IMG/VR virus record: IMGVR_UViG_3300023184_000103
Span: 1-64,000 of that record
Origin: a virus
DNA: 64,000 nt
Direction: 5' to 3' (one strand)
Shown here: positions 4,539 to 59,394 of the stretch, piece after piece
Layout of the letters: each line of letters starts with the position of its first letter
Numbering within the stretch: position 1 is the first letter of the stretch
Translations under genes and position numbers: made by a program
Notes under the pieces: generated by a model
Told to the model about the DNA's origin: nothing
Seen by the model: only the letters and a program-made list of their open reading frames with translations
Database searches by the model: none

Positions 4539-5455
4539 TGACAACTTCGGGCGTTGCTAACTTTGACATGGACCTGAGTGAGGTCATTGAGGATGCGTTT
4601 GAACGCGCAGGCTCTGAACTTCGCACGGGCTATGACATGCGTACGGCGCGTCGGTCACTTAACATCATGTTTGCTGACTGGGCCAACCGGGGCATCAACA
4701 TGTGGACGATTGAGCAGGGGTCGTTTACCCTGACTCAGGGTTTGAACACCTATGCGCTGCCGGTGGACACCGTAGACTTGCTTGAGCATGTCATCCGCAC
4801 AAACGCCAACTCGACAGCCAACCAAGCAGATCTGACCATCACCCGGATTAGCGTCAGCACCTACGCCACACTGCCTAACAAGCTGCAGCAAGCGCGGCCC
4901 ATTCAGGTGATGATCCAACGTAACTCGGGACAGACTTCCGCTACAACCCTAACACTTAGTGGCGCAGTGACTGCCACAGCGACAACTATCACTTTGGATT
5001 CTGTCGTGGGACTAGCCGCCGCCGGCTACATCAAGGTAGACAGTGAGATTATTTACTACGGGTATATCGTAGGCAATGTCCTGACAGCTTGCTCCAGAGG
5101 TCAGGCAAATACCACCGCAGCCACGCATACAACGAGTACAGCAGTGTATGTATCAAACCCCCCTGCAATCAGCGTCTGGCCCACTCCTGATGGCTCCCAG
5201 ACCTATACCTTCGTGTACTGGCGGCTGCGTAGGAACCAAAACGCCGGGGACGGCTCGGATACGATGGATGTTCCGTTCAGGTTTATCCCATGTGTAGCGG
5301 CAGGGTTGGCGTACTACTTGGCGCTCAAGCTGCCTAACGGCATGGAGCGGCTGCAGGTATTGAAGATGCAATATGATGAGGCGTGGCAGTTGGCGCAGGA
5401 TGAGGACCGAGAGAAAGCCGCGGTTCGATTCGTGCCCCGGCAGATGTTTATGTAA
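4538..5455 (+). CDS. Head-tail adaptor-like protein, module X
   Basis: 305 residues. The N-terminal helical part (VIEDAFERAG, RTARRSLNIMFADWANRG) and the C-terminal part (VPFRFIPCVAAGLAYYLALK with a basic helical tail) match the P22 gp4/T7 gp11-type adaptors that connect portal and tail. Between them sits an extra beta-type domain near residues 130-205 (repeated T-L-T/T-I-T stretches). The same architecture occurs in the product at 61265 of module Y. It overlaps its neighbour by one base. Family assignment is from pattern recognition. Confidence 0.72.
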   Translation: MTTSGVANFDMDLSEVIEDAFERAGSELRTGYDMRTARRSLNIMFADWANRGINMWTIEQGSFTLTQGLNTYALPVDTVDLLEHVIRTNANSTANQADLTITRISVSTYATLPNKLQQARPIQVMIQRNSGQTSATTLTLSGAVTATATTITLDSVVGLAAAGYIKVDSEIIYYGYIVGNVLTACSRGQANTTAATHTTSTAVYVSNPPAISVWPTPDGSQTYTFVYWRLRRNQNAGDGSDTMDVPFRFIPCVAAGLAYYLALKLPNGMERLQVLKMQYDEAWQLAQDEDREKAAVRFVPRQMFM

Positions 5456-29290: not shown

Positions 29291-29476
29291 TCAATTTTCT
29301 ACCCCGCTTTGGCGGGGTTCTTTTATGAGCGTTCGGTAAGCCGCAATGGCATCTTTGAGGTCACCTCTTAACTGTTCAATTTGATCTTGTTGGACCTGTA
29401 ACTGCAGGTAAGCGTCCAAAGCAAACTTGTCCAGTGTTGTCCGTTCCCAGGCTGCAAAATTCGGCAGATCGTTCAA
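29291..29476 (-). CDS. Small coiled-coil protein, TTG start
   Basis: 61 residues. TTG start with GAGGA six bases upstream. Helical, with QVQQDQIEQLRGDLKDAI as a probable coiled coil. Its 3' end encodes the terminator hairpin. It overlaps the preceding gene by about 100 nt in another frame, which is unusually long here. Function unknown. Confidence 0.5.
   Translation of the reverse strand: MNDLPNFAAWERTTLDKFALDAYLQLQVQQDQIEQLRGDLKDAIAAYRTLIKEPRQSGVEN
29301..29325 (+). terminator. Terminator between convergent blocks
   Basis: Stem ACCCCGC/GCGGGGT with TTTG loop region and a CTTTT tail for rightward transcription. It lies in the coding end of the minus-strand gene at 29291, so the same hairpin can act on both strands. 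Confidence 0.85.
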
Positions 29477-29660
29477 TTTGATTCCTCATCCATTGTGGCC
29501 CCAGCCGCATCAGTGCAATGCGCTGGCTTTGTGTTACTTTGATCGAGTAGACCACTGCCAGTGGTTCACCCACCCGCTTTGCTTTGGCAATGCGCTTGTC
29601 TCTCATATTGTACTTTTGCTCATGCATGATGCGTTCAAAGTCCTCATCATCTTTTACCAC
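29376..29660 (-). CDS. Small protein of unknown function, GTG start
   Basis: 94 residues. The start GTG overlaps the stop of the mini-gene at 29654. The first ~62 residues look like a real conserved domain (MRDKRIAKAKRVGEPLAVV, then SIKVTQSQRIALMRLGPQWM). The C-terminal ~30 residues overlap the next gene and have odd composition, so a frameshift joining the two frames is possible. Confidence 0.55.
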   Translation of the reverse strand: MVKDDEDFERIMHEQKYNMRDKRIAKAKRVGEPLAVVYSIKVTQSQRIALMRLGPQWMRNQIERSAEFCSLGTDNTGQVCFGRLPAVTGPTRSN

Positions 29661-29749
29661 GGTGCGTCCTCGTGATTGGCTGGATTGAAAGGGATGGGCT
29701 TGTTTGGCTGCGGCTTTGGCAACTCGGTAGGAAAGGGCCAGTTATCCAT
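29654..29749 (-). CDS. 31-residue mini-protein, WPFPT family copy 1
   Basis: ATG 29749 overlaps the stop of the previous gene (ATGGATAA) and its TAA overlaps the next GTG. Product: MDNWPFPTELP, four prolines in the linker, PIPFNPANHEDAPW. It shares W-P-F-P-T-x-LP and PFNP-x-NHE with the mini-gene at 33026. Proline-rich and without a hydrophobic core, so probably a binding peptide. Too small for usual gene calling. Confidence 0.62.
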   Translation of the reverse strand: MDNWPFPTELPKPQPNKPIPFNPANHEDAPW

Positions 29750-30050
29750 TGCGTTCCTTCAAGACGGCTGAAACTTCTTTGTAAAAGCCGGTGCTGTCAA
29801 ATGTTTTAGCGACCAAATTGGTGTCCGTCATTTTGTCGTACCCTGCATTGACCAGCTTGCTGTGCTTCTTTATGTAAAACTGTACCTCCTCCTCTGTCAG
29901 CCCTACCCACGGGCGTTGTGCTGGCAGGGATGGTGTGATTACCCTCCCCTTCATTTCCACAAGCAGCTTCTCAATTTCTTCAATGGAAAACCAACCTTCA
30001 AGAAGAAAGCGGTCTACGCCGTAAGTTTTTTCTGTGTATTCAGTATCCAT
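29742..30050 (-). CDS. PWVGL-module protein 1
   Basis: 102 residues. N-terminal helical part (FSIEEIEKLLVEM), then AQRPWVGLTEEEV, then a helical C-terminus ending LKERNG. The PWVGL block and ending recur in the next two upstream genes. PWVGLT[DE]EE is widespread in small environmental phage proteins as I recall; no function is established. Confidence 0.62.
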   Translation of the reverse strand: MDTEYTEKTYGVDRFLLEGWFSIEEIEKLLVEMKGRVITPSLPAQRPWVGLTEEEVQFYIKKHSKLVNAGYDKMTDTNLVAKTFDSTGFYKEVSAVLKERNG

Positions 30051-30620
30051 TGCGCTCCTTTAGTTTGGCTTCAACGGCTCGGGTTTGCGCTTGGTAATCA
30101 GAGTTGTATGAGTCCTGCACCTCTTCAATCTCCAGCCCTACCCACGGGCGCTGTGCTGCTTTCCACTGAGCAACAAAAGCAATGGCGTCCAGCCCGTACT
30201 CAGCTAAGATGTTCTTAATTAATTCCCATTCGGCGGGTGGCTGTGCTGCGGTGACATAGCCAAACAATTCCAAAAACTCAGGCACCGTATATGTCCCCCG
30301 CGACCCATCGTCAAAGGTAATGTCTGGCGATCCACCAGCGGTCAGCGACACAACCTCCCCAAGACTTTCGTCTTCTAGGCAGATAATTTTGTCGCCCACT
30401 TTTGGCATACGCATTGACACCGGCTCCTGCTCTTGCTGCTCCAGTGCTTTGCGTAGGGCTGCTATCAAATTGTCAGTATGTTGAATCATTTTTCTTCCTT
30501 AAGATAATTTGGGCTTTGTACATTCCTGAATGAAACGCCAGCTTTAGCCGAGTATCAAATTCAGCAGACGCTATTGCAACTTCTTCATCTGTCAGCCCTA
30601 CCCACGGGCGCTGTGCTGCT
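29894..30620. repeat. Three dispersed ~27-bp coding repeats
   Basis: AGCCCTACCCACGGGCG plus flanks occurs at about 29899-29923, 30134-30160 and 30594-30620 and encodes the Q-R-P-W-V-G-L block on the minus strand. A second repeat around CACCGGCTCCTGCTCT lies at 30418 and 30726. They allow recombination between the three neighbouring genes. Confidence 0.7.
30040..30489 (-). CDS. PWVGL-module protein 2
   Basis: 149 residues, AAGGA ribosome binding site. Modules in order: helical start with ALEQQEQEPV, a beta-type middle (KVGDKIICLEDESLGEVV, a small SH3/KOW-like region), AQRPWVGLEIEEV and a helical end LKERNGY. It shares its start with protein 3 and its end with protein 1, so it looks like a shuffled product of the same module set. 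Function unknown. Confidence 0.62.
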   Translation of the reverse strand: MIQHTDNLIAALRKALEQQEQEPVSMRMPKVGDKIICLEDESLGEVVSLTAGGSPDITFDDGSRGTYTVPEFLELFGYVTAAQPPAEWELIKNILAEYGLDAIAFVAQWKAAQRPWVGLEIEEVQDSYNSDYQAQTRAVEAKLKERNGY

Positions 30621-30850
30621 TCCCATTTAACGTAGAGGGGCATTGGCGGCACATCAACAATAGTTGGTGCTGAAATGTGCGTAGGCATTGCCCAGTAAAA
30701 GCCCTTATGTGGGTGGTAATACGCCACCGGCTCCTGCTCTGGCTGCTCCAGCGCTTTTATCAGCATATTTGCTGCTAACTGCTGATGGTATGGATTGCCA
30801 CTATCCAGCAAAATAAGCGCCTGCTGCGCGGCTTGTCTTAAGTCACTCAT
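30473..30850 (-). CDS. PWVGL-module protein 3
   Basis: 125 residues from ATG 30850, which overlaps the previous stop (ATGA). Order: helical start (LRQAAQQALILLDSG), ALEQPEQEPVAYYH, a short variable part, AQRPWVGLTDEEV, helical end with LRKKND. The longer upstream frame is a shadow of the neighbouring gene. Function unknown. Confidence 0.62.
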   Translation of the reverse strand: MSDLRQAAQQALILLDSGNPYHQQLAANMLIKALEQPEQEPVAYYHPHKGFYWAMPTHISAPTIVDVPPMPLYVKWEAAQRPWVGLTDEEVAIASAEFDTRLKLAFHSGMYKAQIILRKKNDSTY

Positions 30851-31056
30851 GCTGCTTTCCTGCCGCAGGTACATACGTGGTCGCTCAGTTTGCCGAGATA
30901 GAAAGTCACTTTGCCACCACACTCCTTGGTGTATGTGTGCTGCGTAATTTTTGTCCATTTGCATTTCAAAGTGCCATACTCTGCGATGTAGCCTTGTGCA
31001 TCGTCATCGTCCAGCTTGGCTTGAGCCATCTGGCGCTTTGATTTAAATCCTGTCAT
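30847..31056 (-). CDS. Small Cys-containing protein
   Basis: 69 residues, 4-nt overlaps on both sides. Acidic patch DDDDAQGYIAEYG, then C32-KWTK and ECGGKVTFYLG with CTCG at the end, giving four cysteines that could bind a metal. Function unknown. Confidence 0.58.
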   Translation of the reverse strand: MTGFKSKRQMAQAKLDDDDAQGYIAEYGTLKCKWTKITQHTYTKECGGKVTFYLGKLSDHVCTCGRKAA

Positions 31057-31724
31057 GGTGCATCCTTCAATTCGTAGTCTTTAAACACCGTCCCCTTGCT
31101 GGCATTGCCCCGCCAACATTCCTTGACCCAGCCCCGTTTGCCAGACTTGTATGTACGCCAGTGGCCTCTGGCCTGATGCCTGCGTGGGCTTGCGTGTGTT
31201 CCACCGCGAGACTCTGCCTGCGGCTTGGGCGGCTCAATGACTATTGTGTGCCAGTCGTACAAAGGCCTCAATCCATGCTTGGCTCTGCTTACGTTGGCCT
31301 TGTGTGGTGTTGGGATGTAAGCCTCTACGGGCATATCCAACGATGCGTAAAACATAGCCACAATCGCGCACATCATTGACTGGTCTTGCGGGTCAATTGG
31401 TTTGTCTACCGGTCCAACTTTTGGCTCCCCGTTATCTTCAGCAAAAAGAAAAGTCCCAAGGGTTTTGTACCCCGTTGGTTTCATGATCCAACCCGTCACA
31501 ATGGTTGCCGCTGGTTCAGCCAACACTGACAGCATAAAGTCACCCTGCGCTGTCTTGCCGCACAACATCATGTTTTTGTAAGGCGCTGGGTGGAGCAAGT
31601 ATTTGCGTTGGTCATAGCCAATGTATTCCTTGATTGCTCCGGTTACGTCAAACCATTGCATCTGAGTTGGGTCAAGATCAGCCACCGATACCATCTTGAT
31701 CATTTCTTTGACTAGCGGTGTCAT
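31053..31724 (-). CDS. Conserved phage protein of unknown function
   Basis: 223 residues. The N-terminal ~150 residues are a mixed alpha/beta domain (PTQMQWFDVTGAIKEYIG, MLCGKTAQGDFMLSVLAEP). The C-terminus is arginine/histidine-rich and zinc-finger-like without paired cysteines (HASPRRHQARGHWRTYKSG, then GWVKECWRG). I recall this ending in phage early proteins, but know no activity. Could bind nucleic acid. Confidence 0.62.
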   Translation of the reverse strand: MTPLVKEMIKMVSVADLDPTQMQWFDVTGAIKEYIGYDQRKYLLHPAPYKNMMLCGKTAQGDFMLSVLAEPAATIVTGWIMKPTGYKTLGTFLFAEDNGEPKVGPVDKPIDPQDQSMMCAIVAMFYASLDMPVEAYIPTPHKANVSRAKHGLRPLYDWHTIVIEPPKPQAESRGGTHASPRRHQARGHWRTYKSGKRGWVKECWRGNASKGTVFKDYELKDAP

Positions 31725-31846
31725 TGCGGCTTCTCCTCGTCTCCAAAGTCCATATCAACAGGGTGCGGCACATCGTCATGCACGATAACGCCATGCTCAT
31801 CTTCCGGTAAAAACTTACCGCATACTACGCAGTAATATCCTGTCAT
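31721..31846 (-). CDS. 41-residue small zinc-type protein
   Basis: ATG 31846 directly overlaps the previous stop and its TGA overlaps the next ATG. Product opens MTGYYCVVCGKFLPEDEHG, with a CxxC pair and later histidines (VIVHDDVPHP) that could complete a metal site; acidic C-terminus. Not in usual length limits, but packing in the operon is exact. Confidence 0.6.
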   Translation of the reverse strand: MTGYYCVVCGKFLPEDEHGVIVHDDVPHPVDMDFGDEEKPQ

Positions 31847-32172
31847 CACATCCCCTCATCGGCCAAGCATTCGGCCAAGATTAAGTAAAAAAGTGGGTAG
31901 TCAGGCTCACCATGAAATTTAACTGAAAAATCATCCGCAGCGGCATGGGCAACTCGATGCTGCCAGCTAAGATTCCACCCATGATCTTCAGCCATCTCCC
32001 GCAGCGCCGTGCTGATCGGGCCATAGGCCAAGTGAGCGTCATCCGGGTGGATGCGGTAGTGGCGCATAGTGTCAATAAAAAGAAATTGGTTGTCTGTTTG
32101 CCACACGACAGAATCATTCCATTTTGTCTGTATCCTCGCTCCACGGGCGGCAGCGTGTAGTAGTCGGCTCAT
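31846..32172 (-). CDS. Small early protein of unknown function
   Basis: 108 residues from ATG 32172, overlapping the previous TGA. Contains RLLHAAARGARIQTKW, then TMRHYRIHPDDAHLAYGPI and EPDYPLFYLILAECLADEG. Looks globular and alpha/beta. The longer reading frame upstream of this ATG is a shadow. No family recognised. Confidence 0.6.
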   Translation of the reverse strand: MSRLLHAAARGARIQTKWNDSVVWQTDNQFLFIDTMRHYRIHPDDAHLAYGPISTALREMAEDHGWNLSWQHRVAHAAADDFSVKFHGEPDYPLFYLILAECLADEGM

Positions 32173-32447
32173 GTGTTTCCCCTTGCTCTGATGGCGGCTT
32201 GCAACGCGCAGAAGGCATCGTGGGCTTTGCGTGTTGTTTCCATGTGCTTGTTGGTGGCACAGTGAATTGACCACCACTTTTTAGCAGCCTCACCCACCAC
32301 CTCCGCACACTCCTCACGCTCGGCAGCGGAAACAAGGGTGGCAAATTTCTCTGCGTACTCAAAGCCAACAATGGGCATCCAGTTCACATCGGTTGCCAGA
32401 TGCAACCCAGCCTCATGCGCCATGCGGATAACGTCGTCTTTGGTCAT
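32169..32447 (-). CDS. Small early protein (TKDDVIRMAHEAG type)
   Basis: 92 residues. MTKDDVIRMAHEAGL opening, then EKFATLVSAAEREECAEV and ALQAAIRARG at the end: an all-helical small protein found in multiple copies in many phages of Gram-negative hosts. No biochemical role known to me. 4-nt overlaps on both sides. Confidence 0.66.
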   Translation of the reverse strand: MTKDDVIRMAHEAGLHLATDVNWMPIVGFEYAEKFATLVSAAEREECAEVVGEAAKKWWSIHCATNKHMETTRKAHDAFCALQAAIRARGNT

Positions 32448-32563
32448 GTTAAGTACCCCGCAAAAAAGAACAGCGCAGCAATAGCAAGCAGCGCGAGGAC
32501 AATGGCGATGGCGGTGTCAAGCCAGCCGTAGGCAAATAAATCTTCTACTTCATCGTCTTTCAT
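32444..32563 (-). CDS. 39-residue single-TM protein
   Basis: ATG 32563 overlaps the preceding stop; TGA overlaps the next ATG. Acidic N-terminus (MKDDEVEDLFAYGW), then one membrane segment (AIAIVLALLAIAALFFFAG). No positive residues after the segment. Could tune host membrane processes; function unknown. Confidence 0.58.
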   Translation of the reverse strand: MKDDEVEDLFAYGWLDTAIAIVLALLAIAALFFFAGYLT

Positions 32564-32790
32564 TTGGCTTCTCCTTTAGCTATAGCTGCACGGGCAATCA
32601 TGTTGCCCTCACTGTTGCCGTAGTGGTCGCCGTTCCCCAGCCGTGCCAGCTTCTCCAACGCCTCCAGCAGTTCAGTGTTTACCTCATGGAGTCGGCGCAG
32701 TTCGGCGGCTGCTCTCCGTGTTGGCACTTCCATGCTGGCGTCGTTCCACTCCATCCAATCAGCCAGCCGCAAGGCTTCTGGTTGTGTCAT
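32560..32790 (-). CDS. Small helical early protein
   Basis: 76 residues. MTQPEALRLADWMEW opening, then RRAAAELRRLHEVNTELLEA (leucine-rich helix, likely coiled coil) and GNMIARAAIAKGE at the end. This is a frequent small protein in phages of Gram-negative bacteria. No known function. Confidence 0.64.
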   Translation of the reverse strand: MTQPEALRLADWMEWNDASMEVPTRRAAAELRRLHEVNTELLEALEKLARLGNGDHYGNSEGNMIARAAIAKGEAK

Positions 32791-33029
32791 GCTTCCCTCG
32801 CTTTCAGCATAGCCAATTCCCTCGTTTTCAGCATAGCGTCTGCCATGACGTAAGCGTCACAAGCGTACAAATCCTCGACATGCCGAGTGTAGCCATGGGC
32901 TAATATTCCCTGCAATGCCAACGCCGCAAAGTAATCGCGCAGGGTCATGCCAGATTCGTGGGTAGTAGTAACGCCGTGCCCGTGGTCTAGGATGTTGCGC
33001 GGAAACGCTGGGCCTCCTGTGTTACTCAT
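32787..33029 (-). CDS. Small early protein (GMTLRDYFAA type)
   Basis: 80 residues. MSNTGGPAFPRN opening, then GMTLRDYFAALALQG and YVMADAMLKTRELA. A well-known but uncharacterised phage family with GG-x-AFP and GMTLRDYFAA signatures. ATGA overlap with the mini-gene before it. Confidence 0.7.
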   Translation of the reverse strand: MSNTGGPAFPRNILDHGHGVTTTHESGMTLRDYFAALALQGILAHGYTRHVEDLYACDAYVMADAMLKTRELAMLKAREA

Positions 33030-33118
33030 AGTGGACTCTCCTCATGGTTGCTGGGATTAAATGGCATCGGCGGTACAGGCCGGTTAGGTGGTAGCTGGGT
33101 GGGGAAAGGCCATGTCAT
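33026..33118 (-). CDS. 30-residue mini-protein, WPFPT family copy 2
   Basis: ATG 33118 overlaps the stop of the preceding gene and its TGA overlaps the next ATG. Product: MTWPFPTQLPPN, then PVPPMPFNPSNHEESPL. Paralogue of the mini-gene at 29654 (W-P-F-P-T-x-LP and PFNP-x-NHE shared, about half of positions identical). The DNA between the two copies has diverged while the peptide pattern is kept. Confidence 0.62.
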   Translation of the reverse strand: MTWPFPTQLPPNRPVPPMPFNPSNHEESPL

Positions 33119-33348
33119 ATCCGATTCCCCCGTGAGTTTGTTACCCTGTCAAAAGCTCTTCCCAAATCGCGGTTGCGATCTTTAGCGCCAACAAGTATCT
33201 GTGCTTTGATGAACAGGTTGGTATTGGCCTCGGCTTCCTCAAATGATTTGGCAAGCCACACTGCTTCGGGTCGCAACTTCCTTTTCGCAATCGCTTGCTT
33301 GATCTGCAAGTCAATGGCTCGTCTAGTCATTGTCTCGGCGTCACTCAT
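33115..33348 (-). CDS. Small helical early protein
   Basis: 77 residues. Highly charged helices (DLQIKQAIAKRKLRPEAV, KSFEEAEANTNLFIKAQ). 4-nt overlaps on both sides. No family recognised. Confidence 0.58.
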   Translation of the reverse strand: MSDAETMTRRAIDLQIKQAIAKRKLRPEAVWLAKSFEEAEANTNLFIKAQILVGAKDRNRDLGRAFDRVTNSRGNRI

Positions 33349-34166: not shown

Positions 34167-36176
34167 CTATTTTTTGAGCATCATGCCGCTAGCAGTGCCA
34201 GGGTCAATGACGATCCAGCCGTTCTCATAGGCTTCAATCAATCCGGCCTCAATCAGCTTTGTGATATATGGTGCTTTACCATCAATCAAATTTCGCCTAG
34301 ATCCTTTCTCTTTTGACTTGGGGAAGGCCGAAATTCCGTTAATCACAGCATAGTCACGCATCACTGATTTAGTAAGGTACGGTGCCCCTCCTCGATCTTC
34401 TGCGCCGGATGACCACCATGCTTTCTCAAAGTCTGAAAAAAGTTCTCCGTTGTTCTTTTGCTTAGACTCTGGCATCTGACCCTTGACAATCACTGCGCTA
34501 GTGACGGGTTCGCCATCCTCATCAAACCAGTCAGGGATTGCCACTGACTCAAGATCAACATAAATTGGAGTGGTCATCTCAGCATCTTTGCTCTTGCGCT
34601 GCACGATCTCAATAGACTTGTCACCCTTAGCAGGAACTACGCTGATCTCAATGTCCAATGCGCCACGCCATGCGGATGAGCCTCGCGCTCGGTGCTGGGC
34701 TTCCTCGCTGACGCCTGTGTGGTGAACGAGAATGACGGTGCAGCCAAACTCTTGCATAAGTGCAGCACAAGCGTCTAGCATGGTCTTGGCGTCTTGGGCG
34801 CTGTTTTCATCACCGGCCATAAACCTGTGCAGGGTGTCCACCGTGATCACATCAGGCTTGATTTTGAGCGCCCTTATGGCTTCCACCACTTTTAGGTACC
34901 CCTCGGCGGTGTTGAGGTCTACACCAGACTTGCTGACCCACATATTTAAGTTGCTAACGTTGTTGTGGTGCTTCCATGCTGCTATCCGACTTCGCAATCC
35001 GTGATGACCTTCACCAGCCAAATACACCATGTTGCCTGGTCTGACCTTGTGACCAAACCATTCAGTCTTTCCACTAGCAATGTGCAGCATCCAGTCCAGC
35101 GTCACGAATGTCTTACCGCCACCGCTTGGACCATGCACCATCACCAAAGCCTTGTCCTGTATCCAATGCTTCACAAGCCATGCAATGGGTGCAGGCTGCT
35201 CTGAAAAGCTATCTGCATGAATAAGGTAGTCAGTTGCTACAACAGGCTTTAAAAGCAGCGCCAAGTCATGCCCTGCTTGAACGTAATCATTGGCATCTCC
35301 TAGCACTGGCGGTGTTGTCATGCGTACCCCATACTTTGCGCTAGCCTGCTCAGCGTAGCGTTGCCCAACTCCACTAGCGTCATGGTCGGCCACGATGCAA
35401 ATGTCTAGCGTCGGATGGCCTTCTTTCAGGATCCCGGTCACCGGCACTAGGTTGCTGGCGCTGTATGCCACCGCGCAGGGCTGGCCTGTGACCTCCGCTA
35501 TGGTGGCGGCTGTGGCAAAGCCCTCGGCAATGTAGAGAGTGGTCGCATCATCCATGCTTCCAAGCATCCAAAACATTGAGCCGGTCTGGCCACCAGGGTG
35601 ATACAGCTTGTTGCCTTGATGGTCAATATACTGGATGCTAGAGAGTTCTCCGTCTACTGAGTAAAGTGGCACCATCAGTCTGCCGTCGCCTGTAATCCTT
35701 GCGCCATGCGTCTTAATGCTTTTGCGCTGCAAGTATGGATGCTCAGGGCTTGCTGCTCCTGCCTGCGACCAGATCAGATCAACGGTGTTAGCGGCAACTT
35801 CTCTGGTCTTTTTCTGCTCTGCATCACGCTGGGTCTTGGCTTCTGCCAAGCGCCGAGACTGTGCCATTTCCTCTACCGGTGTCAGACTGCGACCAATGTC
35901 TGCCTTCCAACTTGATTCAAAACCCGAGCGCCAGCAACCAAAGCGCCCTGCCGGTACGCCATCGGAGAAGACCACATACCAACCAGGCTTGTCGTGACCT
36001 TTCTCGCCCTTTGTGCCTGAGTTAAATCGGTGCAACTTGCCGTCAAGATGGATGGCGTCTGGTGGTTTTAGCCCTGCGGCCAGCATGGCGTCCTTTAACT
36101 GGATGTCAGGCGCATCAACGTGCTTTTGAGGAGGTGGCGACCAAGGGCCACCGAGGATGCTTGCGAGGTCTGTCAT
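34167..36176 (-). CDS. Primase-helicase (Toprim plus RepA-like ATPase)
   Basis: 669 residues. A Toprim-like domain spans about 205-300: E218 in IAEGFATA and the D264-x-D266 pair in VADHDASG, the metal-binding residues of the family. A RepA/RecA-fold ATPase follows: Walker A GPSGGGKT (349-356), Walker B VITVDT (443-448), and VILVHHTG as a sensor motif near 481-488. It probably primes and unwinds phage DNA, or acts as the loader/helicase. The N-terminal ~130 residues have no visible zinc finger. First gene of the leftward block, driven from the divergent region at 36.2 kb. Confidence 0.88.
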   Translation of the reverse strand: MTDLASILGGPWSPPPQKHVDAPDIQLKDAMLAAGLKPPDAIHLDGKLHRFNSGTKGEKGHDKPGWYVVFSDGVPAGRFGCWRSGFESSWKADIGRSLTPVEEMAQSRRLAEAKTQRDAEQKKTREVAANTVDLIWSQAGAASPEHPYLQRKSIKTHGARITGDGRLMVPLYSVDGELSSIQYIDHQGNKLYHPGGQTGSMFWMLGSMDDATTLYIAEGFATAATIAEVTGQPCAVAYSASNLVPVTGILKEGHPTLDICIVADHDASGVGQRYAEQASAKYGVRMTTPPVLGDANDYVQAGHDLALLLKPVVATDYLIHADSFSEQPAPIAWLVKHWIQDKALVMVHGPSGGGKTFVTLDWMLHIASGKTEWFGHKVRPGNMVYLAGEGHHGLRSRIAAWKHHNNVSNLNMWVSKSGVDLNTAEGYLKVVEAIRALKIKPDVITVDTLHRFMAGDENSAQDAKTMLDACAALMQEFGCTVILVHHTGVSEEAQHRARGSSAWRGALDIEISVVPAKGDKSIEIVQRKSKDAEMTTPIYVDLESVAIPDWFDEDGEPVTSAVIVKGQMPESKQKNNGELFSDFEKAWWSSGAEDRGGAPYLTKSVMRDYAVINGISAFPKSKEKGSRRNLIDGKAPYITKLIEAGLIEAYENGWIVIDPGTASGMMLKK

Positions 36177-39087: not shown

Positions 39088-40787
39088 AATATCTGTCCGT
39101 TTGCTCTGGCATTGAAGCCGCAACAGTTGCATGGCATCCGCTCGGTTGGACGCCAGTTGGGTTTGGGGAAATTGAGAAGTTTCCATGCCAAGTGCTAGCG
39201 CATCATTACCCAGATGTGCCAAATTTTGGTGATATGACTAAATTTAAGGAGTGGTCAATTGAATCAGATGTCAATGTTCTCGTCGGAGGAACTCCTTGTC
39301 AATCATTCAGTGTCGCCGGACTCCGAAAGGGATTGGATGACCCTCGTGGCAACCTCATGCTTACATACCTTGCCATTGCTGCAAAGTATCGGCCCCAGTG
39401 GCTGGTTTGGGAGAACGTCCCCGGCGTCTTATCCTCTAACGGAGGACTCGACTTTGCCTCCCTCCTTCGAGGGATGGGGGAACTCGGGTATGGGTTCGCA
39501 TACCGGGTTCTTGACGCTCAGTACTTCGGAGTGGCCCAGCGAAGGCGTCGCGTGTTTGTTGTCGGATATCTTGGAAACTGGCGACCTGCCGCAGCGGTTC
39601 TTTTTGAGCGCCATAGCCTGTGCGGGTATCCTGCGCCGAGCAGAAAAAAGAGGGAAAGTGTTGCCCCTAGCATTGGAACAGGCGCTCCTGTCAGTGACTA
39701 CGATGTCGCAGGAACCCTTGACAAAGGAGTGCCGGGACGAGGAATAGGACACAACGGCAACTACGATTCACAAGTTGTATCAGTCAGTCGTAACAACCAC
39801 GAAGAGTGTGTAAGTTGGCCAGCTGAGATTAGCAGCACCTTAGACACAACCTTTGGCACAAAACAAGGATTAGAAAATCAGCATGTCAATGCGGGATGTC
39901 CCATGTTTGTGCCTGTGCAAACTTTTTCTACGCCAGCGATTGGTAGCATCAGGGAAGATTCATTGTCATCTTGCATCACTAAAAATACAGGCGGTGGTGG
40001 AGAAACTCAAAACCCTGCATTTGTATTGCAGCCAATTGCTCTTGCTGAGAACACCATAGGACGCAAGCCTGAGAATGGTGGCAACGGTGATGGTTTTACT
40101 GATGGCGGCCCGATGTACACGCTCAACGCAACTGGGGTGCATGGTGTGGCGCAGCCGATCCCAATTGACACAATGAACATCAGAAGCAGACCATCTGATG
40201 ATCGTAGAGGAAACCGTATTGGCCGTGGCTATGGTGAGGAAGGTGACCCAATGTTCACCATCACAAGAACAGATCATCATGCGGTAGCGCAGCCGATTGC
40301 ATTTGATGCTTACAACCAAACTACATCAGATATTGTTAGCGCATTACGTTGTGCCGCAGGTGGCGTATTTGATAACACGATAGCGCAGGCAATGGCGTTC
40401 CCTTGGCAATTAGCACTTGACCCAATCGGAAATCCTGCGGATCTAAGCGGCACACTGGTTAAAAATCAAACGATGGCGGTAGCGCAACCAATTGGTTGGT
40501 CAGAAGAATTCACCGCAAGTGTAGACATGGCTGGCACTCTCCAATATGGCGGTCAAGGTGGTCGCCATGATGGTGTGATGACCCAAACCATGCAAGTCCG
40601 CCGCCTCACCCCCACGGAATGTGAGCGCCTGCAGGGCTTCCCTGACGGCTACACCGACATCCAACACAAGGGCAAGGCAACACCTGATGGCCCTAGGTAC
40701 AAGGCGTTAGGCAATAGCATGGCAGTGCCAGTGATGGCGTGGATCGGCAAAAGGATTCAACAGGTTGAGGCTATCCATGCTTCGTGA
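39084..40787 (+). CDS. C5-cytosine DNA methyltransferase
   Basis: 567 residues. Motif I-like LSVCSGIEAA (4-13), motif IV with the catalytic cysteine GGTPCQSF (C72), motif VI ENV (110-112), motif VIII QRRRR (152-156). A long repetitive segment with V-A-Q-P-I units (residues ~310-470) separates the catalytic part from motifs IX/X (RRLTPTECERLQGFPDGY; YKALGNSMAVP). It likely protects phage DNA from host restriction. A second ORF is nested in the +1 frame over residues 59-221. ATGA overlap with the previous gene. Confidence 0.92.
   Translation: MKYLSVCSGIEAATVAWHPLGWTPVGFGEIEKFPCQVLAHHYPDVPNFGDMTKFKEWSIESDVNVLVGGTPCQSFSVAGLRKGLDDPRGNLMLTYLAIAAKYRPQWLVWENVPGVLSSNGGLDFASLLRGMGELGYGFAYRVLDAQYFGVAQRRRRVFVVGYLGNWRPAAAVLFERHSLCGYPAPSRKKRESVAPSIGTGAPVSDYDVAGTLDKGVPGRGIGHNGNYDSQVVSVSRNNHEECVSWPAEISSTLDTTFGTKQGLENQHVNAGCPMFVPVQTFSTPAIGSIREDSLSSCITKNTGGGGETQNPAFVLQPIALAENTIGRKPENGGNGDGFTDGGPMYTLNATGVHGVAQPIPIDTMNIRSRPSDDRRGNRIGRGYGEEGDPMFTITRTDHHAVAQPIAFDAYNQTTSDIVSALRCAAGGVFDNTIAQAMAFPWQLALDPIGNPADLSGTLVKNQTMAVAQPIGWSEEFTASVDMAGTLQYGGQGGRHDGVMTQTMQVRRLTPTECERLQGFPDGYTDIQHKGKATPDGPRYKALGNSMAVPVMAWIGKRIQQVEAIHAS
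39246..39251 (+). promoter_or_regulatory. Shine-Dalgarno inside the methyltransferase gene
   Basis: AAGGAG lies 7 nt before the TTG at 39259, which opens the nested ORF. A perfect site with ideal spacing at an internal place supports translation of the nested frame. Confidence 0.6.
39259..39747 (+). CDS. Overprinted ORF nested in the methyltransferase gene
   Basis: 162 residues in the +1 frame of the methyltransferase gene, TTG start with AAGGAG 7 nt upstream; ATG 39268 is a second option. C-terminal sequence LSDILETGDLPQRFFLS, then CAGILRRAEKRGKVLP, is a pattern I recall from stand-alone phage hypothetical proteins encoded near DNA methyltransferases. The N-terminal part carries SGWFGRTSPAS. 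No catalytic motif known. The frame stays open across the most conserved methyltransferase motifs (VI to VIII). A real overlapping gene is likely, though by sequence alone not certain. Confidence 0.62.
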   Translation: MNQMSMFSSEELLVNHSVSPDSERDWMTLVATSCLHTLPLLQSIGPSGWFGRTSPASYPLTEDSTLPPSFEGWGNSGMGSHTGFLTLSTSEWPSEGVACLLSDILETGDLPQRFFLSAIACAGILRRAEKRGKVLPLALEQALLSVTTMSQEPLTKECRDEE

Positions 40788-43191
40788 CTACCAAACCCGC
40801 ACCATTGACCAGCTTTACGCTTGGTTTGAGGCAGGTAATCGGGGCAACCCATGCCTTGTCCTGCCTACAGGGTCAGGCAAATCTCACATCATTGCCGCCT
40901 TGTGCAAAGACGCGCTGCAAAGCTGGCCGGAGACGCGCATTCTGATGCTGACCCATGTCCGTGAACTGATTAGCCAGAACGCCGACAAGATGCGTTACCA
41001 CTGGCCGAATGCACCAATGGGCATCTACTCTGCCGGGTTGCGCCAGAAGGAACTTGGGGAGCCAATTACGTTCGCTGGCATTCAATCAGTCAGAAAAAAA
41101 TCCAAAGAAATTGGCCACGTTGACTTGGTTGTTATTGATGAATGCTTTGTTGCTGGAACCAAGATTTCAACACCAAAAGGACAAATAGACATTGACAAAG
41201 TGAGGTGCGATGACTTAGTATTTAATACACGCGGAGTTGGCACGGTAGAGGCCGTTAGCTGCCGTAATGTTTTAGAAACTTTACTTGTGGAACTTGATGA
41301 TGGAACAAAATTTGAATGTACCGGAAATCACCCAATTTTTACTGACTGTGGATGGCAAAAGGCAGAACAATTGGAGGTCGGAACGCATCTTTTCCGCATT
41401 GAAGATATGTCCAGCCTGTGGAGCAGAATTCAGACCTTGGATCAAAAAAGACGACAGCGGAAAAGTAATTTCAGCAATGTCGGAACCATTTTGGAAAAAG
41501 CAAAATCATTGCTCCGTGAAGTGTGCAAAGAAATCACACCCGACGGTGCTGAATGCAGAAGCACGCAAACGAATGCGGGAAACTTTGAAAAGAATCAGGC
41601 ATCAACCTATTCAACGTGGAGGAAACGGGCAATTGCTGCCTTTGCCACAGTTAGCACTGCTTCATGCGTTGGGGGAAGGATGGATAGCAGAATATGCAAT
41701 CAAGACCAAAGCGGGACATTTGAACGGGACATATCCGAATGCGTACAAAGTGGACATTTGCTATCCGGAAAAGATGATTTGCATCGAATTGGATGGGGGG
41801 AGTCACGGCAGCGAAGAGAGGAAAATGCAGGACAGGAAAAAAGACCAATATCTTGCGGGCCTCGGGTGGCGCATGTATCGCATATCAAACGAGAAAGCCC
41901 TGTACTTGTATTCAACCTTCAAGTCAGTGGACATCCTTCTTATTTCGCTAATGGAATAGCTGTACATAATTGTCATCTAGTCAGCCACAAAGACGAAGGC
42001 GGCTATCGGACACTTCTATCGGACATCTATCGGACAAACCCAAATGTGAGGGTGATAGGATTAACCGCTAGCCCCTACCGATTAGGACACGGTTACATCA
42101 CCGACAAGCCAGCCATTTTTGACGCGCTGATTCAACCTACTAGCATTGAGGAATTGATTCACAAGGGGTTTCTATCAACCCTACGCTCTAAACTGACCCG
42201 TACCAAGCTGGAGGTGGACGGGGTGCATAAGCGTGGCGGGGAATACATTGAAGCTGAGTTACAGGCTGCGGTGGACACCATTGACAAGAACCGGCTGGTG
42301 GCCGCTGAGATAGTGCGCTTGGGGCATACCCGCAAGTCTTGGCTGGTGTTTTGCGCTGGGGTTGCCCATGCCCAGCATATTGCCGAGGCATTGAATAACG
42401 AGGGCATCACCACCGAATGCGTGACCGGAGATACACCATCCAATGAGCGTGACCGCATCTTGACCGACTTCAAGGCAGGGCGAATTACAGCATTAACCAA
42501 TGCCAATGTGTTAACGACGGGTTTTGACGCGCCTGGGATTGATTTGATCGCCATGCTGCGCCCTACTATGTCACCCGGCCTGTACGTACAAATGGCGGGT
42601 CGTGGCCTGCGGATCGCGCCCGGTAAAACTGACTGCCTGGTCCTAGACTTTGCAGGCGTAGTTGAACAGCATGGCCCCATTACCGCCGTGAAGCCGCCAC
42701 CAAAAAAGGGTGAGAAGCAGGGCGAAGCGCCAGTAAAGGTGTGCGACCATTGTCAGGAGATCTGCCATCTGAGCGTGAGGGTTTGCCCAGCTTGCGGTGA
42801 GGCATTCCCCGAGCCCGAGCGCCCAGCGCTACGCTTACACAATCATGACATCATGGGCGTGGAAGGCGTGGACATGGAGGTCAGTAGCTGGACATGGCGC
42901 AAGCACATCAGCAGGGCTAGCGGCAAAGAAATGCTCAGTTGCACGTACTATGGCGGCCTATCAGATCTGCCAGTTACTGAGTACTTGGCGGTGACGCACG
43001 ACGGGTATGCAGGGGAGAAGTCGCGCCGATTACTAACTGAAATCGCGCATCATGCCGAGGTCACGCTGGAACATGGCACCGCTGACCTGCACCAGATGGC
43101 GCAGCAAATGACTGAGGGCTTAAAACCATTATCAATAGAATTCAAAAAAGAAGGCAAGTTTTTCACTATACTAAAAAGGACATGGATATGA
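40777..43191 (+). CDS. SF2 DEAH-type helicase interrupted by an intein
   Basis: 804 residues from ATG 40777 (GAGG upstream; overlaps the methyltransferase end). Walker A PTGSGKS (30-36), GIQSV (101-105), motif II DE-[intein]-CH (spliced: DECH), TASP, GFDAPGID and QMAGRGLR of motif VI, then a zinc ribbon (CDHCQEICHL...CPACGEAF). The intein spans residues 123-398, so the extein product is 528 residues. Motif II is split exactly after the catalytic glutamate, so the helicase must be inactive until splicing. Likely unwinds DNA in phage replication or recombination. Confidence 0.9.
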   Translation: MLRDYQTRTIDQLYAWFEAGNRGNPCLVLPTGSGKSHIIAALCKDALQSWPETRILMLTHVRELISQNADKMRYHWPNAPMGIYSAGLRQKELGEPITFAGIQSVRKKSKEIGHVDLVVIDECFVAGTKISTPKGQIDIDKVRCDDLVFNTRGVGTVEAVSCRNVLETLLVELDDGTKFECTGNHPIFTDCGWQKAEQLEVGTHLFRIEDMSSLWSRIQTLDQKRRQRKSNFSNVGTILEKAKSLLREVCKEITPDGAECRSTQTNAGNFEKNQASTYSTWRKRAIAAFATVSTASCVGGRMDSRICNQDQSGTFERDISECVQSGHLLSGKDDLHRIGWGESRQRREENAGQEKRPISCGPRVAHVSHIKRESPVLVFNLQVSGHPSYFANGIAVHNCHLVSHKDEGGYRTLLSDIYRTNPNVRVIGLTASPYRLGHGYITDKPAIFDALIQPTSIEELIHKGFLSTLRSKLTRTKLEVDGVHKRGGEYIEAELQAAVDTIDKNRLVAAEIVRLGHTRKSWLVFCAGVAHAQHIAEALNNEGITTECVTGDTPSNERDRILTDFKAGRITALTNANVLTTGFDAPGIDLIAMLRPTMSPGLYVQMAGRGLRIAPGKTDCLVLDFAGVVEQHGPITAVKPPPKKGEKQGEAPVKVCDHCQEICHLSVRVCPACGEAFPEPERPALRLHNHDIMGVEGVDMEVSSWTWRKHISRASGKEMLSCTYYGGLSDLPVTEYLAVTHDGYAGEKSRRLLTEIAHHAEVTLEHGTADLHQMAQQMTEGLKPLSIEFKKEGKFFTILKRTWI
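41143..41970 (+). mobile_element. Intein (276 residues) in the helicase motif II
   Basis: C1 at residue 123 opens CFVAGTKIST (block A); block B has T182-G-N-H185 (TxxH) in ECTGNHPIFT; the C-terminal block reads VFNLQVSGHPSYFANGIAVHN with the penultimate H and terminal N398, followed by C399 as the +1 nucleophile. All class 1 splicing residues are present. There is no in-frame homing endonuclease domain; instead the middle ~170 residues of this frame are the shadow of a complete endonuclease read in +1 (see 41285). Confidence 0.9.
41285..41959 (+). CDS. DUF559/EDxHD-type homing endonuclease nested out of frame in the intein
   Basis: Up to 224 residues in the +1 frame of the intein, ending 11 nt before the intein does. 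A zinc finger (C42-P-A-C45 ... C76-x-x-x-C80) precedes a PD-(D/E)XK-type core: D157 in YKVDICYPE, E168-x-D170 and H174 in IELDGGSHG, then D183 and KKDQY (D187), and GWRMYRIS near the end. This is the DUF559/Vsr-like nuclease pattern known in homing enzymes. The true start is uncertain: TTG 41285, ATG 41297/41300 or TTG 41399. It would cut intein-free alleles to spread the intein. Confidence 0.8.
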   Translation: MWNLMMEQNLNVPEITQFLLTVDGKRQNNWRSERIFSALKICPACGAEFRPWIKKDDSGKVISAMSEPFWKKQNHCSVKCAKKSHPTVLNAEARKRMRETLKRIRHQPIQRGGNGQLLPLPQLALLHALGEGWIAEYAIKTKAGHLNGTYPNAYKVDICYPEKMICIELDGGSHGSEERKMQDRKKDQYLAGLGWRMYRISNEKALYLYSTFKSVDILLISLME

Positions 43192-57866: not shown

Positions 57867-58466
57867 ATGTCTTCGACTAGCGCACCCTTTGGTTTTAGGG
57901 CTAGTTTCCACAACAGTGGTCAAATTCGTCCCAAAGCCTATGTTATCGCGAGCGGCTATGCTGCCAACATCTTTCAGGGCGACCCTGTAAAGCTGGTGGA
58001 CGCTGGCGTTGTTCAACTCGGCACGTCTGATGGTACTCGTTCGGGTACTGTTGATGGTATTTTGCTGCTTGGCATTTTTGCCGGCTGCCAATACACCGAT
58101 TCTTTGGGCAAACCCACCATATCACCGTTCTGGCCTACCGGCACTACAGCAACGGATGTTACGGCTTGGGTCTACGACGATCCAGAAACTTTGTTTGAAG
58201 TGCAGTACACCAATCCGGGTACACCTGGCACCACGACAATGCAAACTGCCGTTGGTGAGGAAATGGACTGGACGGTGGCTTCACCGGGTGGCTCTACCTC
58301 AACGGGTTTGTCAAACACCCAAATCGGCGTCATCCAAGCTACTTCTGGTCAATTCCAGTTGACTGGCTTTGCTGGCGAAATCAACGACTCCCTGACAGAT
58401 GCATATATTGTAGCTATTGTTCGTATCAACGAGCACATCTACAAAGCTGCTGTCAACTCAATCTAA
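57867..58466 (+). CDS. Head decoration-like protein, module Y
   Basis: 199 residues, TTAGGAGAAA site. MSSTSAPFGFRA opening then SGYAANIFQGDPVKL, GIFAGCQYTDS and VYDDPETLFEV, paralogous with the product at 2 in module X but without its threonine-rich insertion. Located 13 nt before the capsid gene, as in module X. Likely head decoration or stabilising protein. Confidence 0.74.
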   Translation: MSSTSAPFGFRASFHNSGQIRPKAYVIASGYAANIFQGDPVKLVDAGVVQLGTSDGTRSGTVDGILLLGIFAGCQYTDSLGKPTISPFWPTGTTATDVTAWVYDDPETLFEVQYTNPGTPGTTTMQTAVGEEMDWTVASPGGSTSTGLSNTQIGVIQATSGQFQLTGFAGEINDSLTDAYIVAIVRINEHIYKAAVNSI

Positions 58467-58479
58467 GGAGGGCTAAAAC

Positions 58480-59394
58480 ATGGCTACCCCAATGAGAAGT
58501 ACCGACTTTAGGTCGGTTGTTGAGCCGATAATGAACGAGGTGTTCGACGGCATTTACGAGCAACGTGCTGACGAATGGAAGATGGTCTTCCGTGAGCAAA
58601 AAGGTATTCCTCGGAATTACCACGAAGAACCCGTCCTGTACGGTTTCGGCGCGGCTCCTGAGTTGCCTGACGGCATGGCTGTGACCTACCAAAGCGGTGG
58701 TGTGCTCTTCATTCAGCGTTACCTTTACAAAGTGTATGGCCTTGCCTTTGCTTTGACCAAGGTGCTTGTTGAAGATGGCGACCACATCCGCATTGGTCAG
58801 ACCTATGCCAAGCACTTGGCTCAGTCGCTGATTGAGACTAAAGAAACTCTATCCGCCAATGTCCTGAATCGTGCCTTCAACAGCGCGTATCTGGGTGGTG
58901 ACGGTGTTTCTTTGATTTCAACTTCACACCCGATTGTCAATGGTGTGTTTAGCAATCAGTTGAGCACCGCTGCTGCACTGTCGCAGACCTCGCTTGAGCA
59001 ACAGTTGGTTCAGATCCGCAACGCTGTTGACAACAATGGCAAGCGTATCCGTCTGACACCTAAGAAGATCGTTTCTGGACCCAGCAATGTGTTCCAGGCC
59101 GAAGTTCTGCTCAAGTCTGTTCTGCGCACCGGCACGGCTGACAATGACATCAACCCGGTCAAGTCCATGGGCTTGCTGGCTGAAGGTCAAGGCAATCTGT
59201 CGCGTATCACATCTACCACCGCTTGGTGGATCCAGACTGATGCACAGGATGGCCTGAAGCTGTTGATGCGTCGGGGCTTGGAGAAGTCTATGGAAGGCGA
59301 CTTTGAGACTGACTCCATGCGCTACAAAGCCACTGAGCGTTACACGGTGGGTTGGACTGACCCACGCGGTTTGTACGGCACCGCTGGAGTCTAA
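58480..59394 (+). CDS. Major capsid protein, module Y
   Basis: 304 residues. Homologous with the capsid protein at 808: [YI]LGGDGVSLISTSHP near residue 140, LRTGTADNDIN near 220, and the C-terminus RYKATERYTVGWTDPRG. The N-terminal third is different, with an E-loop-like segment (GFGAAPELPDGMAVTYQSGG). It follows scaffold and decoration genes in the same module as portal and terminase, so it is the default capsid protein of this packaging system. Intact. Confidence 0.9.
   Translation: MATPMRSTDFRSVVEPIMNEVFDGIYEQRADEWKMVFREQKGIPRNYHEEPVLYGFGAAPELPDGMAVTYQSGGVLFIQRYLYKVYGLAFALTKVLVEDGDHIRIGQTYAKHLAQSLIETKETLSANVLNRAFNSAYLGGDGVSLISTSHPIVNGVFSNQLSTAAALSQTSLEQQLVQIRNAVDNNGKRIRLTPKKIVSGPSNVFQAEVLLKSVLRTGTADNDINPVKSMGLLAEGQGNLSRITSTTAWWIQTDAQDGLKLLMRRGLEKSMEGDFETDSMRYKATERYTVGWTDPRGLYGTAGV

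Follow-up and report, generated by a model that had tools for sequence, protein, structure and literature searches.

A proline-rich mini-protein family of uncultured phages, proposed as an early linear-motif ligand of a conserved host protein

The window analysed here is a stretch of 64,000 nucleotides, positions 1 to 64,000 of the IMG/VR virus record IMGVR_UViG_3300023184_000103, in which two small unlisted open reading frames had been predicted from the sequence to encode related mini-proteins. Both were recovered with the translations expected: copy 1 (29654..29749, minus strand) encodes a peptide of 31 residues, MDNWPFPTELPKPQPNKPIPFNPANHEDAPW, from an ATG start with an AAGGA-like ribosome site close on its 5' side, and copy 2 (33026..33118, minus strand) encodes a peptide of 30 residues, MTWPFPTQLPPNRPVPPMPFNPSNHEESPL, from an ATG start. 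Genes of about 30 codons are easily missed by gene callers. As had also been claimed, both reading frames overlap the starts and stops of the flanking genes, by 4 to 8 nucleotides on each side. The start of copy 1 shares 29742-29749 with the last 8 nucleotides of a 102-residue gene (29742..30050, minus strand) that carries an RPWVGLTEEEV motif and belongs to a family that immediately precedes mini-proteins in many further phages, and the final codons of copy 1 contain the GTG start of a 94-residue gene (29376..29660, minus strand, sharing 29654-29660), homologues of which lie downstream of other members of the family. Copy 2 overlaps by 4 nucleotides (33115-33118) the upstream gene of 77 residues (33115..33348, minus strand), for which the only matches were weak and sub-threshold ones to PHROG_922 / DUF7185, and its stop codon forms an ATGA overlap (33026-33029) with the downstream gene of 80 residues (32787..33029, minus strand), which belongs to PHROG_2201 (E=8.6e-21).

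Both copies lie within an array of small genes on the minus strand, opposite to the structural genes. A primase/helicase gene (34167..36176, minus strand; DNA primase PHROGs with E values to 2.2e-53, and Pfam AAA_25 and Toprim_3) stands upstream at the head of the array, and just past the array are more genes of replication and recombination, namely those for a Sak4-like protein, a single-strand binding protein, a Cas4-type exonuclease, a methyltransferase and a helicase. This position in a replication-side array, on the strand opposite to the structural genes, suggests that the mini-proteins are probably expressed early.

To compare the two copies, we searched the window's own virus record of 68,272 bases. 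Copy 2 as the query found copy 1 at E=1.5e-8, a likeness far beyond chance, and a family profile built from 11 rows, copies 1 and 2 both among them, matched exactly two places in the record, copy 1 at E=3.5e-17 and copy 2 at E=5.1e-16. By profile match, both reading frames have the form of what we define here as the WPFP/NPxN family. The two peptides are 61% identical and their DNA is 57% identical over 87 nucleotides, with a pS of 0.85 and a pN of 0.28, in agreement with the earlier statement that the peptide pattern has been kept while the DNA diverged. The description of a family in two copies holds for the window, but most of the long carriers searched have a single copy, and the window's copies are nearer to those of other phages than to each other: the copy 1 peptide, from W to the end, is 100% identical in L036 and L015, and the copy 2 peptide is 96% identical to the copies in L098 and L077. 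Two copies per phage were found in the window, L180 and L286, and in all three the last residue of the upstream copy is L and that of the downstream copy is W. An assembly chimera was set aside as the origin of the window's two copies, since L180 has both at places aligning with the two window loci. Copies 1 and 2 look like two types inherited separately, rather than the result of a recent duplication.

Relatives of both peptides were found in plenty, spread over hundreds of contigs from uncultured phages. IMG/VR was scanned with two patterns, PFNPxNHE and WPFPT...PFNP, each of which gave at least 120 stretches, and a profile recognised 163 usable members among the first-set loci, the window counted in. 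The strict WPFPT...PFNP pattern alone is estimated to occur in roughly 220 contigs, an estimate that rests on sub-sampling by codon (the full scan gave 17 CCA hits, the first sample about 10). A third scan of IMG/VR used the C-terminal block alone, NPDN[FY]E-x-x-P, and among the matches listed WPF was present upstream in 110 of the 112 new hits and the block lay no more than 30 residues from the stop in all 112. Because the N-terminal block was absent from its query, this third scan is an independent confirmation of the family, and it also exposed a second branch, WPFPPFPNPKDKG...PKFNPDN[FY]EDAP[RLIV]. All scans together gave at least 258 non-redundant members with at least 190 distinct peptides, and the true size of the family exceeds 258 members.

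The shared form consists of WPFP, a proline-rich and variable linker mostly of 13 to 14 residues, the block FNPxN[HFY]E[DE][AS]P, usually one further residue, and the stop. The spacing from WPFP to FNP was 13 residues in 132 of 158 members and 14 residues in 21, and E[DE][AS]P-x made up exactly the last five residues before the stop in 153 of 163. Hardly any variation is seen in WPFP, NP, N and E, the E is preceded by H, F or Y, and the residue that follows NP is variable; the invariance at positions used in the pattern scans is partly by construction, from which WPFP in the third scan is exempt. In most members the gene overlaps the start of the next one in an ATGA, GTGA or TTGA type arrangement, and the last residue (n=245; leucine in 118, tryptophan in 65, arginine in 25, phenylalanine in 21, isoleucine in 11 and valine in 5) tracks this overlap, being L, R, I or V with ATGA and otherwise mostly W or F, sometimes L with GTGA. 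The last residue, which follows how the gene overlaps the next start, is thus in part a consequence of tight gene packing, and since the flanking genes fix part of the terminal sequence, the conserved end residues need not all be functional; the functional core most likely stops at the proline before the last residue.

The free-standing forms (202 distinct peptides) are most commonly 31 residues long, with 27% proline, as the label "proline-rich" had implied, and a median net charge of -1. Proline-rich antimicrobial peptides of the apidaecin/oncocin type are cationic and Arg-rich with PRP repeats, and such an identity was rejected on the basis of this median charge. The AlphaFold2 model was an extended chain with a pLDDT of 80.6, a pTM of 0.21 and no secondary structure. 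It would fit a peptide that is ordered only when on a partner, but as weak evidence, since for a coil of 31 residues a pLDDT of 80 carries little information.

The results showed that the reading frames behave as coding sequence. The median dN/dS over 1079 usable pairs was 0.19, no pair exceeded 1, and the other five frames gave values of 1.27 to 2.82, bar one antisense frame at 0.34. All four proline codons are in use at the conserved prolines. From these two observations it follows that selection acts on the peptide itself, that is, the encoded peptide is under purifying selection. The original prediction had named as contrary outcomes a lack of relatives and equal rates of synonymous and non-synonymous change; neither appeared, relatives being abundant and the rates clearly unequal, and its claim that these are real genes is strongly supported by the conserved peptide over diverged DNA and by the dN/dS. 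A product without function, for example a regulatory leader ORF, an arrest peptide or a filler coupling translation of the overlapping neighbours, would agree with the overlap with the downstream start in most members, but is very improbable in view of the low dN/dS with synonymous freedom, the lack of a constant downstream gene across members and the fact that some longer proteins end in the same sequence.

A start codon was found no more than 8 codons from W in 243 of 254 members, and the mini-protein is mostly free-standing; in a few phages, other small proteins have the module as their C-terminus. These N-terminally extended forms begin with MSKGSVPRPF...DAIFG in L156, with MTGYxSKK in L018, L090 and L108, with MTEQQQF or MTDQQQF in L161 and L130, and with a segment ending in NLKHLNAVLHNSH in L011, L043, L050 and L154; others were found in L062, L089 and L092. 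In L166 a protein of the MSKGS/PRPF type lacks the tail and a separate free mini-protein is present. L156 keeps the usual internal ATG, in the L011 group a GTG stands six codons ahead of W, and from such an internal start the free peptide could also be made in these phages. The extended forms may be viewed as small phage proteins that would bear the same docking tail.

The family is spread over diverse phages and appears to be new to the libraries searched. Compared by nucleotide sequence, the first-set loci, a few of which are without a member, form 45 groups. None of 20 members matched Pfam, PHROGs or NCBIfam at E<=0.1 in any of the three libraries, a cut-off of E<=1 gave the window pair no match in either PHROGs or Pfam, and a sequence search of the PDB gave no credible match. 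In a tblastn search of 50,697 phage records, copy 2 had no match and copy 1 had one meaningful but weak match, MW202701 (E=0.1), which was found again at E=8e-3 with a query from another branch of the family; it is the sole carrier of a full member among these records, and the gene is unannotated there. Plasmids gave nothing beyond partial matches at E>=2. A scan of 84,980 bacterial species genomes with the strict pattern only gave five matches, which were judged to be chance hits and not members of the family, and profile searches of 398 Pseudomonadota genomes (with two profiles) and of 296 genomes from the phylum of G040 yielded no full member. One half-length match (E=0.006) was seen in the profile searches of bacterial genomes. 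The absence from the bacterial genomes searched fits phages that are seldom kept as prophages, or hosts that are unsampled.

To see what else the carriers share, 16 diverse ones were compared by BLAST. They had been picked for having the mini-protein, so its presence in 16 of 16 is by design, and no other protein family was common to more than 10 of the 16; an ERF-type recombinase was looked for in them and none was found. The best reading of these results, which we hold tentatively and at somewhat less than even confidence, is that the mini-protein is a linear-motif ligand that acts early and inside the cell on a conserved host protein. This reading is based on the two separated conserved blocks, the tolerance of N-terminal additions, the lack of a predicted fold and the lack of a detectable phage gene common to the carriers, and a host partner is preferred over a phage one because the diverse carriers share so little else. 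The two blocks, WPFP and FNPxN[HFY]E[DE][AS]P, would grip the putative host protein as an extended ligand, and the host protein would be blocked or redirected as part of host takeover; alternatively, the effect may be to disarm a defence complex, in the way that the 26-residue Stp of T4 acts on the type Ic restriction complex. That host factors may be blocked or redirected was proposed in the original prediction, and we favour this inference because the peptide is conserved across phages sharing no other detectable gene, lies beside replication genes and is absent from the bacteria searched. A bolder form of the proposal, possible but on the doubtful side, is that the proline-rich module of about 28 residues may be a docking or inhibitor cassette that uncultured phages exchange freely, used alone, in some phages as a paralogous pair, or at the C-terminus of unrelated small proteins, and always aimed at one conserved bacterial protein that has gone unrecognised as a phage target.

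A different partner is conceivable within the phage. The peptide may dock on a phage-encoded machine, either the replisome or a small array protein, in which case it would be an assembly tag and not an anti-host weapon. The mini-protein does have phage replication genes at its side and belongs to arrays whose modular small proteins carry an RPWVGLTDEE motif; such proteins are frequent neighbours in other phages, and 101 of 483 adjacent-gene assignments fell within one linked cluster of them. A tag also fits the finding that other small phage proteins can end in the module. However, the RPWVGLTDEE array motifs were absent from 4 of the 16 carriers (G022, G026, G028 and G031), yet the peptide blocks are nearly invariant, which weakens a role bound to the array, and at BLAST level the 16 carriers have no phage protein family in common. 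A diverged protein common to tailed phages, such as terminase, portal or capsid, could lie beyond the reach of BLAST and serve as the partner. We consider docking on a phage machine unlikely. Among the other neighbours, a ThyX-like gene was seen in L114 and glutaredoxin-like genes in L388, L375, L319, L345, L347 and L348; a link to nucleotide metabolism was dropped because the cases were too few.

The other frequent neighbour is a small protein of 70 to 80 residues, confidently predicted as a winged helix (AlphaFold2 pLDDT 93.2; the closest folds in the PDB are ArsR-like, with E 6.5e-3 for the best), which raises the alternative that the mini-protein is an anti-defence peptide in an anti-CRISPR-like cassette with the winged-helix protein as an Aca-like regulator. 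As in acr-aca cassettes, a small gene is directly followed in many phages by the gene of a small winged-helix protein: of 58 loci found by an identity of 60% or higher to this protein, 37 have it immediately 3' of the mini-protein, as do 4 of 22 loci of lower identity. The putative regulator is likened by its predicted fold, and unlike in acr-aca cassettes the pairing is not obligatory, in that 21 of the 58 close loci had no mini-protein within the stretch examined and both window copies are followed by other genes. We know of no anti-CRISPR as short as 30 residues. Taken together, we regard this alternative as improbable.

The end of the peptide, EDAPL or EESPL, prompted us to consider mimicry of the SSB C-terminal tail (DDDIPF-COOH), by which the peptide would fill the pockets that bind SSB on replication and repair proteins of the host. 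The tail is a hub motif (PMC5872125), and the mini-protein resembles it in having acidic residues, then A or S, a proline and a mostly hydrophobic chain end. This explanation was marked down to a very low probability once the last residue, which is not fixed, was found to track the start codon by which the next gene overlaps the mini-protein gene; arginine is last in 25 of 245 members, the residue before the proline is A or S and not I, L or V, no acidic run followed by a constant hydrophobic-Pro-Phe carboxy terminus was found, and the strongest conservation is elsewhere, in the WPFP and NPxN core.

The host-ligand reading can be compared with known phage peptides. To our knowledge, T4 Stp and the mini-protein share no motif. 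Stp is a 26-residue anti-restriction peptide acting on the type Ic restriction complex (PMC3014915), and this precedent makes a phage effector of such size feasible. Both are phage peptides of about 30 residues with a conserved block, a variable part and no enzyme domain, and Stp is delayed-early in T4 (PMC3014915), to which the probable early expression of the mini-protein may be likened. In Stp, however, the conserved block is N-terminal (18 residues) and the C-terminal part is variable, and it has been described from T4-related phages; its target is known, that of the mini-protein is putative, and neither homology to Stp nor membership in any known family is claimed. Other small phage proteins that bind or modulate host proteins include TraR/lambda Orf73, Aqs1, Kil, T7 gp0.4 and gp4.5 (PMC11323111), and the mini-protein may act in the same manner. 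TraR (73 residues) and Aqs1 (69 residues) are more than twice as long, and, in contrast to this group, the mini-protein has no predicted secondary structure and is sometimes appended to other small proteins.

In general, the analysis revealed a peptide that stays nearly unchanged in two blocks across phages without any other detectable gene in common, and such conservation across otherwise unrelated phages points to a constant target, most likely a bacterial one. Comparison of peptides across uncultured phages can thus recover real genes that standard annotation overlooks, and the target of this one, if found, would provide both a vulnerable host protein and a ready-made ligand of 30 residues for it.

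In the deposited phage genome MW202701.1 (locus L003 of the phage loci gathered for the mini-protein), the mini-protein lies at 5001-5084 without annotation, and the gene directly upstream is annotated as an integrase. In a few phages, the mini-protein directly adjoins a gene for a glutaredoxin-like small protein with a CPxC motif (loci L388, L375, L319, L345, L347, and L348) or a ThyX-like gene (L114). The winged-helix phage proteins, whose genes follow that of the mini-protein in many phages, form a family of 70 to 80 aa in which YIDRW is invariant and the end carries CPxP (L101, L011, L133, L055, and others; alignments A2 and A5). Uncultured phages are rich in this family, with at least 591 stretches, and one family representative had no match in the 50,697 phage records.

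In the window, a single phage record carries two different major-head-protein-like genes, at 808-1719 and 58480-59394(+), which are preceded by genes of similar type at 44-796 and 57867-58466, respectively. The helicase gene at 40765-43191(+) appears on sequence inspection to be interrupted by an intein-like insert, which begins with CFVAGTKI and ends with GIAVHN-C, and within which an inner ORF of 224 aa in another frame (41285-41959(+)) looks like an endonuclease.

At 29742-30964(-) of the window, small phage proteins made of recurring short modules in changing order are arranged in an array, and related arrays were observed at many loci, such as L003, L018, L092, and L410. No significant PHROG or Pfam match was obtained for the window array proteins, and an array-protein representative gave zero matches in the 50,697 phage records. 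The modules include MTGYxSKK..., MTKDEALxLALEALE, LVxxxEREAC...IRARG, and RPWVGLTDEE...IEAKLKEKN, and the QRPWVGL motif is common to three ORFs of the window. These arrays look like the product of shuffling of short peptide modules.
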